Assembly: GCA_019187105.1 (NCBI GenBank)
Contig: JABAQM010000001.1
Span: 1,736,001-1,800,000 of the forward strand
Direction of reading: 5' to 3'
Source: Fimbriimonadaceae bacterium
GTDB lineage: Bacteria; Armatimonadota; Fimbriimonadia; Fimbriimonadales; Fimbriimonadaceae
DNA: 64,000 nucleotides
Positions 4,855 through 25,392 of this stretch are shown here, piece after piece. The notes beneath the pieces were generated by a model. It was not told where the DNA came from, ran no database searches, and saw only the letters and a list, made by a program, of their open reading frames with translations. Positions within the stretch are counted from its first letter, which is position 1. Every line of letters starts with the position of its first letter. The position numbers and the translations under genes were made by a program.

Positions 4855-5700
4855 ATGGCCGAACCCCTCTTCTTGCCCTTCCCGATACGAAGCGACAAGT
4901 TCTCTTGCCAGGTTCGGATCGAGCGGCATCTGGCCCACGTACAGACTCCCTTTCAAGTCATCGACATCTATGACACGGAGTGCTTTGGCAAGATGCTGTT
5001 CCTCGATGGACACATTCAGCTTGCGGAGCTCGACGAGCATGCCTACCACGAGGCACTCGTCCACATTCCCGCCCTTTCGATCGCCGGACTCCATTCGGCG
5101 CTGGTGGTTGGCGGCGGCGATGGAGGGGTGCTTCGGGAGCTTTGCCGACATCGTACGATCGACCGCATCGACATCGTCGAAATCGACCAAGCGGTGATCA
5201 GCACGTCCCTCGAGCTCCTGCCCGGACTCAGCGCCGGGGCCTTCAGCGACCCTCGAGTCAACCTCATCGTTGGAGACGCCTTCGATTTCGTCAGGTCGTC
5301 CACCAGCTCTTACGACCTCATCGTTCTGGACGCGACCGATACCTACGAGGAGGCAGAGGGCGAGCTAAGTGAGCAGCTCTGGACAAGCGACTTCTACCAA
5401 GACTGCATCAACCGGCTCTCGGACAAGGGCTTTGTCGTTACGCAGGCCGACAATCTGGTCTTCTGCCCCTACTCGTTGAATGCAATTCTCCGAGTGTTCT
5501 CGGCCGTCTTTCCAGCGTGCGGCTTCTACCAAGCCTTGGTGCCGAGCTTCGGAGGCTTTAGCGGCTACGCCTGGGCGAGCAATGGCTCCCGCCCCCAGGA
5601 ATCGATGCCGGCACACGACCTTGCCCTTCGTTATCTGAATGACGTCACGTGGAAACTAGCATTCACCAGCCTCGGTTTCGATGTCGAATCGGAGGGCTAG
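4855..5700 (+). CDS. speE: Polyamine aminopropyltransferase (spermidine synthase)
   Basis: Transfers an aminopropyl group from decarboxylated S-adenosylmethionine to putrescine or a related diamine; cytoplasmic. The 281-residue protein shows the N-terminal beta domain (CFGKMLFLDGHIQLAELDEHAYHEALVH), the SAM-type nucleotide loop VVGGGDGGVLRE, the acidic residue of VEIDQAV, VGDAFDFV, and the catalytic aspartate in VLDATD. The motif order and length match SpeE well. The exact polyamine made is not predictable. The ATG start lies behind a TAAACT box with no Shine-Dalgarno sequence. Its last 45 bases overlap the end of recX on the other strand. Confidence 0.93.
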   Translation: MAEPLFLPFPIRSDKFSCQVRIERHLAHVQTPFQVIDIYDTECFGKMLFLDGHIQLAELDEHAYHEALVHIPALSIAGLHSALVVGGGDGGVLRELCRHRTIDRIDIVEIDQAVISTSLELLPGLSAGAFSDPRVNLIVGDAFDFVRSSTSSYDLIVLDATDTYEEAEGELSEQLWTSDFYQDCINRLSDKGFVVTQADNLVFCPYSLNAILRVFSAVFPACGFYQALVPSFGGFSGYAWASNGSRPQESMPAHDLALRYLNDVTWKLAFTSLGFDVESEG

Positions 5701-7244: not shown

Positions 7245-9626
7245 ATGCGATCGCTCGCCCTCGTCTTCGGTGTATGGGCGACCGTCGTCGCGTTTGCCCA
7301 GCCGGTCGAGATCCGAATGATGGGCGGCAAGAGCTGGGGAATACCGCCCAAGGAGGCCAGCGACCCCCGCAGCCAGGCGCGAAGGGCTATCTTCGAAGCC
7401 TTTCATCGCGAGCATCCCGACGTTCGCGTCGTGAATGCCGGTGGGCTGGAGGTCGTCGGCAACACGATTGAGAGCGCATTCCTCATGTCCATGGCGGGCG
7501 ACACAGCGCCAGATGTCTTCTATGTTAACTTTCGCCAATACTATTCCTTCATCGAGCAAGGCTTTTGCCTCCCACTCGATCCGCTCATCGATCGCGACCC
7601 CTCAGTTCTGAGCCGGATTAGTCCGATCGTTCGCGAGGTCCTCACCAGTTATGACGGGCGGATCTACGCGATGCCGTGGTTCCAAGTCGCTAACGGACTG
7701 TATTACCGCAAGGACCACTTTCTGGAAGCTGGACTTGACCCCGCCAAGCCTCCCCGCACATGGGCCGAACTCCATGAGTACGCGAAGAAACTCACCGAAT
7801 CCAAGGCGGGACGAATCGGGTTTTCCCTCGCCAAAGCCTATCACTGGAGCAACCTGCTGTGGCAGGCCGGAGGCGAGATCGTCGTACCCGGAGAAGGCGG
7901 TTATTGGAAGGCCGCAATCGCCTCGGAAGCGGGGGTCCAAGCGCTTGAGTTCTACCGGCGACTGATGACTGATAAATGGGTGGGGGCAGATGGTGCCGAA
8001 AAAGGGCCCGCTGCCCAGGACACCCTTAGCCACAACACCGATGTCCAGACGGGCAAGGTCTCGATGTGGTTCAGCTACACGAATGACGTGATGCTCAACA
8101 CGTCGGACATCAACCCGGCGCTGCTCGGAGTCGCAAGGATGCCGGCCGGTCCGGGTGGCCACGCTAACGAAATCAACGCCGGAATGTGGGCGATCAACTC
8201 CCAGATCAGAAATCCGGCCAAGCTGGAGGCTTGCTGGAAGTTCATCCGCTACTTCGCAGGTGATGAAGCCGCGCGGGTGAACACGGTCAAGTTCGTCGAA
8301 CTGGGCCTCGGAAGCTTGGTCAACCCTGTTTTACTGCGGCGGTATGGCTTCGGCGACTTGGCAACCCAGGTGGATCCGGCGTTCGTCAAGGCCAATGAGG
8401 AGCTGTTTAAGAGCGGTAAGCCAGAACCGTATGGCCGCAACTGCCAGCAGGTCTATGTCGTCATGGACGGCGCCCTGGACCGGTCGCTGCTGGAACCGGA
8501 TACTCCCGCGATCGACATTCTTCGCGATACCGCAAAGGAGATGGATGAGAAGTTGCTGGGTTACACGCCCAAGGAGGTGCAGCAAGTACGCCGAACCTGG
8601 GCTTGGACCATTCTCGGCATCGTGATGGCGGGCTGCGTGGTCCTTGTTTGGGTAACGATCAGCAGCGGCAAGCGGTCGGCAAACTATGTTGCCCCAATTC
8701 GGGTCACCCCTGGCCAATGGCGGTTCTTTTGGGCTTGCCTGCTCCCTGCCGCATTGAGCATTGCCGTTTGGGCCTACTACCCCCTGGTTCGCGGGCTCGT
8801 GATTGCCTTCCAGGACTACAAGCTCGTCAAAGGGTCGACCTGGGTGGGGCTCGACAACTTTATCGCTGTCTTCACCCAGCCAATCTTCTACCGCGCAGTG
8901 CTGAACAGCTTCCTCTACGTCGGGCTGACCATCCTCATCGGCTTCCTGATCCCCATCTTCCTCGCCCTCGCACTTAACGAGATTCCACGAGGCAAGGTGC
9001 TGTTCCGCACCCTCTTCTATCTGCCCGCGATGACGAGCCCCATCGTCATCGCCTTCCTGTGGCGTCAGTTTTACGATAAGACTGACCAGGGCCTGCTCAA
9101 CGTCTTCTTCTCGCCCGTGATCGGGTTCATCAACTCAATCTTGGGAACGTCGCTTCCCCTCACCAACGACTGGTTGGGGAATCCTCAGCTCGCGATGTTC
9201 GCCGTGGTCTTGCCCGGAATATGGGCGGGGGCAGGTCCCGGGTCGATTCTGTACTTGGCTGCCCTCAAAAACATTCCGGAGGAACGGTACGAAGCGGCGG
9301 ACCTCGACGGAGCGACCTGGCTCCAGAAGATCCGCTGGATTACGCTCCCCGGCCTTCGGCCGCTGATGTTGATCAATTTGCTGGGCGTCTTCATCGGCGG
9401 CTTCAAAGCGATGGAAAACGTCTTCGTTCTCACCGGCGGCGGACCGCTCTACGCAACCCATACGCTTGGGCTGGAGGTCTGGACGAACGCGTTTATGTTC
9501 CTCAAATTCGGCTACGCGACAGCGGCCGCGTGGGTCATGGGAGCCATCCTGATCGGCTTCACGTTGATGCAAATCCGATACCTGCTTCGCATGCGCTTTG
9601 GAACGACGCCGAGCGAAGCTCGATGA
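7245..9626 (+). CDS. ABC transporter fusion: extracellular solute-binding protein plus MalF-type permease
   Basis: A single polypeptide joins two parts normally encoded separately. The ATG at 7245 is chosen because it begins a signal peptide (RSLALVFGVWATVVAFAQ). Residues about 20-440 are a family 1 solute-binding protein (AFHREHPDVRVV, TAPDVFYVN, YAMPWFQVANGLYYRKDHF, FIRYFAGDEAA). A transmembrane helix near 452-473 links it to a permease domain with several helices and the ATPase-contact EAA loop, EERYEAADLDGATWLQKI, near residue 680. This suggests a carbohydrate or oligosaccharide importer with a tethered binding protein. No partner MalG-type permease or ATPase is adjacent; priA follows with a four-base ATGA overlap. 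The substrate is unknown. Confidence 0.88.
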   Translation: MRSLALVFGVWATVVAFAQPVEIRMMGGKSWGIPPKEASDPRSQARRAIFEAFHREHPDVRVVNAGGLEVVGNTIESAFLMSMAGDTAPDVFYVNFRQYYSFIEQGFCLPLDPLIDRDPSVLSRISPIVREVLTSYDGRIYAMPWFQVANGLYYRKDHFLEAGLDPAKPPRTWAELHEYAKKLTESKAGRIGFSLAKAYHWSNLLWQAGGEIVVPGEGGYWKAAIASEAGVQALEFYRRLMTDKWVGADGAEKGPAAQDTLSHNTDVQTGKVSMWFSYTNDVMLNTSDINPALLGVARMPAGPGGHANEINAGMWAINSQIRNPAKLEACWKFIRYFAGDEAARVNTVKFVELGLGSLVNPVLLRRYGFGDLATQVDPAFVKANEELFKSGKPEPYGRNCQQVYVVMDGALDRSLLEPDTPAIDILRDTAKEMDEKLLGYTPKEVQQVRRTWAWTILGIVMAGCVVLVWVTISSGKRSANYVAPIRVTPGQWRFFWACLLPAALSIAVWAYYPLVRGLVIAFQDYKLVKGSTWVGLDNFIAVFTQPIFYRAVLNSFLYVGLTILIGFLIPIFLALALNEIPRGKVLFRTLFYLPAMTSPIVIAFLWRQFYDKTDQGLLNVFFSPVIGFINSILGTSLPLTNDWLGNPQLAMFAVVLPGIWAGAGPGSILYLAALKNIPEERYEAADLDGATWLQKIRWITLPGLRPLMLINLLGVFIGGFKAMENVFVLTGGGPLYATHTLGLEVWTNAFMFLKFGYATAAAWVMGAILIGFTLMQIRYLLRMRFGTTPSEAR

Positions 9627-21266: not shown

Positions 21267-21764
21267 ATGACGCTTCAGGTCCCATTTCGCAATTTCATAT
21301 CGGCGGTCAGCAGGCATCTTGAGCGGCCGCTCGTGTACCTGCACCGCGACGGGGCAACGACGACGGTCTCGGCGGCTGATCCCGGTCGGGGCGTTGTGGT
21401 CACCTCGACGACGGACGAATCTCTGAGCAAGATCAAAGAGAGGCTGGACCACGAGGGTTTTTCCGTTTCCGACGGACAATGGACCGAAGGTCATGCCCTG
21501 CAAAGCGAGGAAGAGCGCCAGGAAACCTATATTGGCGCCGTCGCCTATCGCACGCGCGACGAGAGCCCCGGACTTTGGCTGGATGCGTTCCCGTCTGAGC
21601 CCACCCCCGCGATCGTGCTGCAGGCCATTTATTCCGAGTTTGAGACTCACGGCGAGATGGGTGAGGTGTCGTTCGAGGAATTCCTGCGTCTGGCCAAGCC
21701 CACCGTGGTAATCGTGTCCCCAGAGCAAGTGGCTGCCTTCCTTCGCCAGAGAGCCGGCTGCTAG
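21267..21764 (+). CDS. Hypothetical protein, 165 residues
   Basis: I do not recognise a family. The protein is soluble, without signal peptide or membrane segment. It has a mixed alpha/beta N-terminal half (FRNFISAVSRHLERPLVYLHRDGATTTVSAADPGRGVVVTSTTDESLSKIKERLDHEGF) and an acidic second half (YIGAVAYRTRDESPGLWLDAFPSEPTPAIVLQAIYSEF; EVSFEEFLRLAKPTVVIVSPEQVAAFL). The ATG is preceded by GAGGG. It diverges from acs with shared promoter DNA and ends tail to tail with folD, with the two stops sharing CTAG. Codon use looks like its neighbours, so it is probably a real gene. Confidence 0.7.
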   Translation: MTLQVPFRNFISAVSRHLERPLVYLHRDGATTTVSAADPGRGVVVTSTTDESLSKIKERLDHEGFSVSDGQWTEGHALQSEEERQETYIGAVAYRTRDESPGLWLDAFPSEPTPAIVLQAIYSEFETHGEMGEVSFEEFLRLAKPTVVIVSPEQVAAFLRQRAGC

Positions 21765-22612
21765 CGAAGCGCTTCCGCCGATTCCACCGTGTTCATCAAG
21801 AGACACGCGACGGTCATCGGGCCGACTCCGCCGGGTACGGGCGTGATCCAGGAAGCAACCTTGGAAGCAGCCTCGAAATCCACGTCGCCGACGTCGTGTG
21901 ACCGGCCTTCGACCTTGTTGTATCCGGCATCGAGTACAACCGCCCCCGGCTTGATCCAATCCCCCTTGATCATCTCTGGTCGGCCGACGGCGGCTACCAG
22001 GATGTCGGCTTGCCGACAAAGATCGGGCAAATTCCGGGTTTTGGAGTGGGCGACGGTCACCGTCGCGTTCTTCTGCAGCAGCATGAGCGCGGCGGGTTTA
22101 CCGAGAATCACGCTCCGTCCGATCACCACGGCATGCTTGCCGGCGACGTCGATCTCATAGCGATCCAGAAGCGTCATCATACCGAGCGGCGTCGCACATC
22201 GAAAGCCGGGAAGGTCCGACACGAGGCGGCCAAGCGATTGCGGCGTGATGCCATCGACGTCCTTGGTGTGGCCCAGAGCGGCGAGGGCGGCCGCTTCGTC
22301 AAGGTGCGCCGGCAGCGGGTGCTGAATCAGGACGCCGTGGACCTGAGGGTCGTCGTTGAAGCGCAGGATCGTGTCGATGAGCTCGGACTGCGAAGTCGAA
22401 TCAACTATCTCGGTGGAGCCGCTGATCATGCCTGCGTCTTCGGCCCACTTTCGCTTCATGCGAACATAGGCGAGACTGGCCGGGTCCTGGGCCGCGACCA
22501 GTGCCTCCAAACGCGGGATGATCCCTGCCTTTCGAAGAGCGGCAACGCGTTCGGCGACCTCTTGCCGGAGCTGTTTGGAGATGGCCTTGCCATCAATGAT
22601 CTGTGCCGTCAA
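21761..22612 (-). CDS. folD: Bifunctional methylenetetrahydrofolate dehydrogenase/methenyltetrahydrofolate cyclohydrolase
   Basis: Interconverts 5,10-methylene-, 5,10-methenyl- and 10-formyl-tetrahydrofolate using NADP(H). The TTG at 22612 overlaps the nusB stop (TTGA) and gives 283 residues beginning TAQIIDGKAISKQLRQEV, which matches FolD. An ATG further upstream would add 13 residues inside nusB. Motifs: YVRMKRKWAEDAG with the catalytic lysine, VLIQHPLPAHLD, KDVDGITPQSLG, the dinucleotide loop VIGRSVILGKPAALML, and PVPGGVGPMTVACLL. It is the last gene of the overlapped accB-like/pseudopilin/accC/nusB/folD operon. Confidence 0.95.
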   Translation of the reverse strand: MTAQIIDGKAISKQLRQEVAERVAALRKAGIIPRLEALVAAQDPASLAYVRMKRKWAEDAGMISGSTEIVDSTSQSELIDTILRFNDDPQVHGVLIQHPLPAHLDEAAALAALGHTKDVDGITPQSLGRLVSDLPGFRCATPLGMMTLLDRYEIDVAGKHAVVIGRSVILGKPAALMLLQKNATVTVAHSKTRNLPDLCRQADILVAAVGRPEMIKGDWIKPGAVVLDAGYNKVEGRSHDVGDVDFEAASKVASWITPVPGGVGPMTVACLLMNTVESAEALR

Positions 22613-23197
22613 CGTTTGGATGGCGCCTCCGACCGAGTCTTGATCGTCCAAGGTATCGCCTTGACAAACTCCTCGTGCTCGGCCGTGCCTTCTTCCACCA
22701 CTTCGAGCTCGGGTTCCGGTGTCAAGTCTTCCTCTCCTTCATCTTGAGGCATCTCCTGACCCCCTTGCCAGTCCCGCTTTTCGGTGACCTTCAGCAGGCT
22801 GCCGAGTACGCCGTTGACAAATTTCCCGGAATCGGCGGATCCAAAGCGCTTGGCCAGAGCCACGGCCTCGTTGATCGTAACCTTGGGAGGCATCTCGGGC
22901 AGGTGGAGAAGCTCGTACGCCGCCACAACCAGGATGCAACGATCCGTCCAAGCCAATCGCGCGAGCGGCCATTCTGCCGAAAGGTGCGGAACGATCGACC
23001 GAATCAGACTCTCTTCGTTCTGAACGCATCCGTCGGCCAGCTGCTTGGCAAAAGCCGAGGTCTCCGGTGTGAATGCATACCGATCGAGAACGTCCTGCAC
23101 GCAGTCTTTGGGCCCCCCAAGATTGCACTGATAGAGTGCCTGCAGCGCCGCCTCACGGGCCACGCGTCGTGACCGTATTGGCTTTGGCTCGACCGAA

Positions 23198-23205
<8 letters not shown>
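22609..23205 (-). CDS. nusB: Transcription antitermination factor NusB
   Basis: NusB with NusE binds boxA RNA and supports rRNA antitermination. 198 residues starting from TTG inside the end of accC (eight-base overlap). The core RRVAREAALQALYQCNL, ADGCVQNEESLIRSIVPHLSAEWPLARLAWTDRCILVVAAYELLHLPEMPPKVTINEAVALAKRFGSADSGKFVNGVLGSL is standard NusB. An extra C-terminal tail of about 50 residues is very acidic (DEGEEDLTPEPELEVVEEG). The tail is not needed in other NusB proteins; its role is unknown. Translational coupling with accC and folD is likely. Confidence 0.93.
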
Positions 23206-24576
<1,371 letters not shown>

Positions 24577-24577
<1 letters not shown>

Positions 24578-24960
24578 CAGTACTTTTCATGCCCGAGGTG
24601 CGGGCAACGGACTTCGCCAGATTCGGTGTTCAGCTCGTAGGGCTCTCCACCCAGCGGGCAGCTCGAAAATTCCTTCGGCAGCTTGAGGTCTGCGATCGAC
24701 GCGGGCGGTGCATCGTCGGCGTTGGTACGGTAGATCATGATGGCCTGACGAACTTGATTCAGGTTGCTGCGGCAAACCGTGTCCTTTCCTGCCGCCTTCG
24801 ATCTCCCCACGATCGTCTCGCCCACGCCATCGGCTCGTGGCTTCGACCCTGCAGAGCCCTTCAATAGGCCAAAGCCGCCGGTCGAGAACGCACCGATCAA
24901 GACGCCGACGATCACGAGCACCACCAGCATTTCGATGAGACTTGCTCCTCGCGACTTCAT
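24577..24960 (-). CDS. Pseudopilin-like protein inside the acc operon
   Basis: 127 residues with a type IV pilin-like start: KSRGASLIEMLVVLVIVGVLIGAF, a short basic stretch, conserved glutamate at +5 after the SLIE cleavage region, and a hydrophobic helix. The C-terminal part (CRSNLNQVRQAIMIYRTNADDAPP, FSSCPLGGEPYELN, VRCPHLGHEKY) resembles small type II secretion or competence pseudopilins and carries four cysteines. Its ATG overlaps the accB-like stop (ATGA) and its TGA overlaps the accC ATG, so it is fully embedded between two fatty-acid genes. Expression with acc genes is unexplained; it may simply share a transcript. Confidence 0.8.
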
Positions 24961-25376
24961 ATTCCTACCTCTACGCGAACGATCGGCTGCCCGTATTCCA
25001 CCGGATCGCCATCCCCGACCATGGCCTCCGTAACCTCGCCCGCAATGGGCGAAACAACCTCGCTGACGATGCCGAGCGCCGTAATCGAGCCAATGACATC
25101 GCCTTCGTGAATCTCGGTTCCAGGCTTCAAAGGACCGTTTGAGAACTTGAAGTAGCCAACCATCTCGGCTTCGACCACACCGTAGGACTCCGAAATCGGT
25201 TCGATGACTTCCAGCTCGGGACTTCCTTCCGGAATCGTCATCCCGCCGGAGGATGGGACTCCCCCGATCTCGGCCCGAAATTTAAGATCGCCCTGCTTGA
25301 GCCTTACCGTCCGAAATCCATGCCTGGACGCAGTTTCAAGCGCGTGTCGGATGGCCGATGCATCGCTATCGCCCAT
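24957..25376 (-). CDS. AccB-like (BCCP) protein lacking the biotinylation lysine
   Basis: The layout is that of the biotin carboxyl carrier protein: an N-terminal helix/strand (IRHALETASRHGFRTVRLKQGDLKFRAEI), a short linker, then a biotinyl/lipoyl domain (VEAEMVGYFKF, PGTEIHEGDVIGSITALGIVSEVVSPIAGEVTE, DPVEYGQPIVRVE). At the position of the biotinyl lysine in the canonical EAMKM hairpin it reads TALGI, with glycine at 25071-25073. It therefore cannot be biotinylated in the usual way. The second ATG (25376) is chosen because a TACAAT box overlaps the first (25388). Plant BADC proteins are comparable lysine-less BCCP homologues that restrain ACCase; a similar role here is inference. Confidence 0.85.
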   Translation of the reverse strand: MGDSDASAIRHALETASRHGFRTVRLKQGDLKFRAEIGGVPSSGGMTIPEGSPELEVIEPISESYGVVEAEMVGYFKFSNGPLKPGTEIHEGDVIGSITALGIVSEVVSPIAGEVTEAMVGDGDPVEYGQPIVRVEVGI

Positions 25377-25386
25377 GAGTCCCCGC

Positions 25387-25392
25387 ATTGTA
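25387..25392 (-). promoter_or_regulatory. -10 box for the accB-like operon
   Basis: TACAAT on the reverse strand, ten bases before the ATG at 25376. It overlaps the alternative ATG at 25388, which would then not be transcribed. No good -35 is visible. Confidence 0.35.

Follow-up and report, generated by a model that had tools for sequence, protein, structure and literature searches.

An AccB paralogue lacking the biotinyl lysine in the accC operon of Fimbriimonadaceae: a candidate bacterial analogue of plant BADC

BADC subunits have been described as 'unique to the plant htACCase', in which they aid assembly and make contact with the BCCP thumb (PMC11926652). An inhibitory role was proposed for them from in vivo plant studies and has been argued against for the plant protein, and the epsilon subunits of actinobacterial acyl-CoA carboxylases are cited as non-catalytic components that are said to aid assembly (PMC11926652). 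The motif CYIEQLGGQFPIES was printed for Brassica in a study that called several of its proteins orthologues of the Arabidopsis BCCP-like protein (PMC9578262); the same study gives CYIEQLGGQFPIESDVTGEVVKI as a new biotinylation domain, though the site is without lysine and several of the proteins are BCCP-like orthologues. No lysine-less bacterial BCCP was found in the open-licence literature in PMC; priority is judged within that literature and is not certain.

The window analyzed here is a stretch of 64,000 nucleotides from a Fimbriimonadaceae bacterium (Armatimonadota; GCA_019187105.1, contig JABAQM010000001.1, positions 1,736,001 to 1,800,000). An AccB-like gene heads an operon with the order accB-like, prepilin-like, accC, nusB-like and folD-like, all on one strand and with overlapping ends; we take the last two names from family knowledge and the conserved order. 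The preliminary description had placed the AccB-like gene two genes from accC, and it was right, with the prepilin-like gene lying between. The features are, in coordinates of the window:

24957..25388, minus strand: lysine-less AccB paralogue ('type A' BCCP), 143 aa, ATG start
25269..25370, minus strand: its N-terminal helix and two strands, residues 7-40, matching E. coli BCCP (profile alignment, AF2 model)
24969..25184, minus strand: its biotinyl/lipoyl-type domain, residues 69-140, pLDDT ~98, 'thumb' insertion absent (alignment, AF2 model, Foldseek)
25071..25073, minus strand: codon GGC for Gly106, the biotinyl-lysine position, motif ALGI (sequence and alignments)
24577..24960, minus strand: prepilin-like gene, 127 aa, sharing 4 bases with the accB-like gene at its stop
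23198..24577, minus strand: accC, biotin carboxylase, 459 aa (TIGR00514, 636 bits, above cut-off)
22609..23205, minus strand: nusB-like gene (conserved order)
21761..22651, minus strand: folD-like gene (conserved order)

The protein had been described as having the BCCP layout with ALGI in place of AMKM, and the profile searches bear this out. It matched Pfam Biotin_lipoyl with 27.9 bits (gathering score 22.1) and the NCBIfam BCCP model TIGR00531 with an E value of 4e-9 and 37.1 bits, under the cut-off of 115.2; the intact, type-B BCCP of the same genome (see below) likewise stays under this cut-off, with 90.5 bits. The family profile was aligned end to end with E. coli BCCP (4hr7_B residues 20-176, E 8.5e-32), N-terminal helix and hairpin included, so that EAMKM of E. 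coli corresponds to TALGI (ALGI from residue 104) and Gly106 occupies the column of the biotinyl lysine. The AlphaFold2 model obtained with the family alignment (mean pLDDT 84, ~98 across the C-terminal domain) has a helix at residues 7-23, strands at 27-32 and 35-40, and then a biotinyl-type sandwich in which Gly106 sits at the hairpin turn, between strands 98-104 and 107-112. Its top Foldseek match in the PDB was the E. coli biotinyl domain 1bdo (TM 0.81, target length), and 4hr7 and Arabidopsis BCCP1 (9a87) were matched as well. Profile, model and Foldseek agree on the presence of both the biotinyl-domain fold and the N-terminal domain of AccB/BCCP, and the biotinyl-type domain is the best-conserved part of the family (VEYGQ, invariant glycines). 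The thumb insertion, present in the type-B BCCP, is absent from the aligned window protein.

No lysine in an E-x-M-K-x context was found at the hairpin, and the only lysines of the protein are K31, K36, K81 and K88, the last 55 residues having none; a shifted lysine is thus ruled out, as is a single sequencing error, since GGC differs from AAA/AAG at all three bases. Because Gly106 stands in the lysine's place and no other lysine is available nearby, biotinylation in the usual way is, judged from the sequence, impossible, as had been claimed.

A match was obtained by protein search in 96 of 101 relatives, with Fimbriimonas and Fimbriimonadaceae MAGs as the named ones, and the lysine-less protein is present in nearly all members of the window's family. 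Glycine was found at the biotin site in 28/28 aligned orthologues (27 from the window's own family and one from the same order; identity to the window protein 28-42%), mostly within the motif A[LV]G[LIM], which rules out a local mutation of an AMKM kept by close relatives. For the close lysine-less pairs where dS could be estimated, dN/dS was 0.04-0.34, similar to lysine-bearing pairs; the gene is therefore under purifying selection and encodes a maintained protein, and a pseudogene is ruled out.

The suspicion that a true BCCP might be encoded elsewhere proved correct. The window genome (3.31 Mb, two contigs, 99.6% complete) encodes a second, thumb-bearing BCCP of 158 aa with the motif IEAMKVFNEI (C1:2003147-2003623), which adjoins a homoserine dehydrogenase gene, is unlinked to accC and lies 0.24 Mb from the lysine-less gene. 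This protein is referred to as type B. Only two biotin carboxylases are present, the AccC of the window and an MCC-like one, and a further carrier has the motif EAMKTQQ (L004). As accA, accD and birA (biotin ligase) were also found beside accC and the unlinked BCCP, a complete ACC can be made by this genome with type B as the carrier.

The site was then compared across Armatimonadota, where the accC-locus paralogue was read in 107 genomes from 38 families. Because the genomes were sampled with resemblance to the lysine-less profile as a guide, the residue counts (G 49, K 32, R 14, H 4, T 4, S 3, D 1) are not unbiased frequencies. The lysine was missing in 75/107 of these sampled genomes, and 22 families were without it, twelve had K only and four were mixed (f9, f12, f13, f36). 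Mapped on the AccC tree, K versus non-K requires no fewer than 12 changes, and the identity of the residue requires 21. Nested cases with good support are serine or threonine within the K-bearing family f36, histidine next to lysine in f9, and arginine next to lysine in f13. Lysine is the ancestral state of BCCP, and the nested cases are for this reason best read as losses; the lysine appears to have been lost repeatedly across the phylum. Motifs of intermediate decay were also seen, such as AMGLMNEV (f8), SMRLMNEC (f17), SLTLMNEI (f4), ALGLPNEI (f5), and ALGLANDV (f1). The order accB-like, prepilin, accC, nusB, folD is kept in most Armatimonadota loci, with accC in 43/52 and prepilin in 43/52 of the loci over 4.3 kb. 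As a separate observation, a pseudopilin-like gene is coupled to ACC in most of these loci by its place between accB-like and accC.

A match to a second BCCP was found in all 21 representative Armatimonadota genomes, and in the 20 where it was read (for G063 there is a match only, with the site residue unread) it was a distinct, lysine-bearing and thumb-bearing type B, mostly with EAMKVF(N/S)E and overall with EAMK(V/L/I)F. Every lysine-less genome checked had a second BCCP. In a tree of 92 BCCPs, type-B proteins of Armatimonadota, Chloroflexota and others formed one group (31 rows, SH-aLRT 93), in a tree whose deep branches are weak given the short protein. In some Armatimonadota families type A keeps its lysine despite the presence of type B, and may still carry biotin there.

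The same pairing was met in other phyla. A scan of named genomes gave lysine-less proteins in Ktedonobacteria (site residue N or H; including Thermosporothrix hazakensis, Dictyobacter arantiisoli and Ktedonospora formicarum), in two related MAGs, one of them labelled Nitrospira (G), and in a Spirochaetota MAG (N). A lysine-bearing type-B BCCP accompanied the protein in 13/13 lysine-less genomes from these phyla, and all but two of the roughly 20 genomes from other phyla that keep K in type A had one ACC-type BCCP only (Fisher p 2e-7, not corrected for kinship). In a further Chloroflexota sample, the genomes with both types read had R, D, N or G in type A and K in type B, and the other single copies that were read kept K. 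An apparent Actinomycetota case (L114) was not counted as another phylum, as it is the same protein segment as one in a genome that the genome search puts in the window's phylum (G213).

Gene neighborhoods differ between these groups. In one Chloroflexota genome (G343, L369) the order is accA, accB(G), fabD, accC, fabZ, fabF, accB(K), fabH, tightly packed and with 4-base overlaps at several junctions, accA/accB(G) included; the position of accB(G) inside this acc-fab cluster therefore ties the lysine-less protein directly to the fatty-acid ACC. In another locus (L161), the three genes accC, accB(H) and accB(K) stand side by side. With neighbors named from the starts of their sequences, the lysine-less gene of most Ktedonobacteria lies away from accC, at aroKB-aroQ-pepP-efp-accB-xseA, and that of a Nitrospira-like MAG (L166) occupies the classical accB position, aroQ-pepP-efp-accB-accC.

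Some side observations concern BCCPs in these genomes. The lysine-less protein of the Nitrospira-labelled MAG (L245/L134) scores 130.8 bits with TIGR00531, above the cut-off of 115.2, and would be called BCCP by automatic annotation, while the type-B BCCP of the window genome falls below it. Merdimmobilis hominis (L101) has two accB copies (4974-5414 and 8313-8753) separated by 3.3 kb and apparently identical in the part compared, either a duplication or an assembly effect. In Gastranaerophilales loci (L117, L135, L136, L151, L155) the BCCP linked to accC has the unusual motif ETIKL(V/I/M)NKI, and the one such genome checked (G309) encodes a further BCCP, with EAMKLMNEI, at a different place. 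The ETIKL motif keeps the lysine and has lost the methionine, which may represent an early step along the same route.

Genus g30 of the window's family is represented by two species (G029 and G047) with 1.5-Mb genomes that are 97% complete. Neither the lysine-less protein (apart from one weak match in the protein search) nor type-B BCCP nor AccC was found in these two genomes; their only BC is the orthologue of the MCC-like one, and no carrier was found other than one with EAMKTQQ. The lysine-less protein and ACC look to have been lost together, in one event and one genus. The apparent lack of AccC and of any ACC-type BCCP in g30 suggests, as an aside, a dependence on outside fatty acids.

We consider it probable that the non-biotinylated AccB paralogue is a structural or regulatory subunit of ACC, most likely one for assembly, and a bacterial analogue of plant BADC: its fold is kept while its site is lost, it is co-encoded with accC, selected, and paired with an intact BCCP, and the disappearance of AccC together with both BCCP types from g30 lends further support. 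Counted against this reading are the single instance of co-loss, the lysine that type A keeps in some families with type B, the distance from accC in most Ktedonobacteria, and the lack of a thumb in the window protein. A duplication would have given rise to types A and B, after which type B would have taken over biotin transfer, and type A at the classical locus would have been kept for assembly, its lysine then being dispensable. The lysine-less protein would dock on biotin carboxylase, on type-B BCCP or on both through retained surfaces and occupy some of the places for BCCP in the BC-BCCP assembly, where it would hold the complex together, which we favor, or cut the share of active arms. 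As the window protein is thumbless, a BADC-like contact would need the thumb of type B. In its general form, the proposal is of a two-BCCP ACC in which biotin is carried by one type and AccB at the classical locus is a biotin-free subunit for assembly or control, BADC-like and evolved many times by loss of one residue, in Armatimonadota, much of Chloroflexota and at least two other lineages; we would give this wider statement about an even chance.

Among the alternatives, the closest is a negative regulator that competes with type-B BCCP for BC and throttles fatty-acid synthesis, as in the original inhibitory model of BADC from in vivo plant studies (PMC11926652). The shared fold, the co-encoding with accC and the missing cofactor would all suit a competitor, but a standing subunit would fit at least equally the co-loss and an association with core ACC genes that holds throughout the phylum, and inhibition has been argued against for the plant protein itself (PMC11926652), which makes this reading rather unlikely. 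It is still less probable that the protein is kept solely to regulate the transcription or translation of its own operon, for which biotin would not be needed. E. coli AccB is reported to act on accBC in this way, and the window gene is the first of its operon and retains the N-terminal domain; set against this, the best-conserved part is the biotinyl-type domain, superfluous for an N-terminal regulator, and the operon context varies between phyla. A functionless type A drifting to loss after the takeover by type B would account for the wide spread of site residues across the phylum (K/G/R/H/S/T/D), but hardly for the low dN/dS, the invariant glycine in the window's family, the presence in nearly all its members and the conservation to phylum depth, and is very improbable. 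The assignment to a different biotin enzyme, for which the second, MCC-like BC speaks, or a modification at another residue has equally little in its favor, given that the other carrier with EAMKTQQ exists, that g30, which has lost the lysine-less protein, retains the MCC-like BC and a counterpart of this carrier, and that no lysine lies near the hairpin.

The role of BADC, described from plant plastid ACC only, is disputed between inhibitor and assembly factor, and bacterial systems, cultured Ktedonobacteria among them, could settle it. The natural series from K kept through only K lost to the whole motif replaced would give a view of a catalytic carrier turning into a structural subunit. A further consequence is that many BCCP-annotated genes encode proteins unable to receive biotin, a point of importance for metabolic reconstruction and for ACC engineering.

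Set beside the known systems, the window protein shares with E. coli-type AccB/BCCP (TIGR00531) the full-length layout and fold, the conserved VEYGQ end and the position before accC, and differs from it in having no biotinyl lysine (AMKM replaced by ALG[LI]), no thumb and a score below the TIGR00531 cut-off. The actinobacterial epsilon subunits resemble it as non-catalytic subunits, a role that is only proposed here, and are to our knowledge unrelated to BCCP in sequence. Closest is plant BADC or BCCP-like protein (BCCPL) of the plastid heteromeric ACC, likewise a BCCP homologue without the biotinyl lysine beside a real BCCP. The window protein is a BCCP homologue without the biotinylation motif that coexists with the lysine-bearing BCCP and the BC of a heteromeric ACC, and the BADC-like character assigned to it in the preliminary description holds in that the three are kept together. 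Even the replacement is alike, as CYIEQLGGQFPIES of Brassica differs from plant BCCP CIIEAMKLMNEIE by K-to-G and M-to-L, as does ITALGIVSEVVS here; this comparison rests on one printed motif, and the plant and bacterial losses are assumed to be convergent. Unlike plant BADC, the window protein is bacterial and encoded in the accC operon, and the bacterial lysine was lost many times and to several residues; BADC is reported to contact the BCCP thumb in plants, whereas the window protein is itself thumbless. A lysine-less BCCP paralogue is thus known from plants, and what seems new is its recurrence in bacteria and its pairing with a second type of BCCP.
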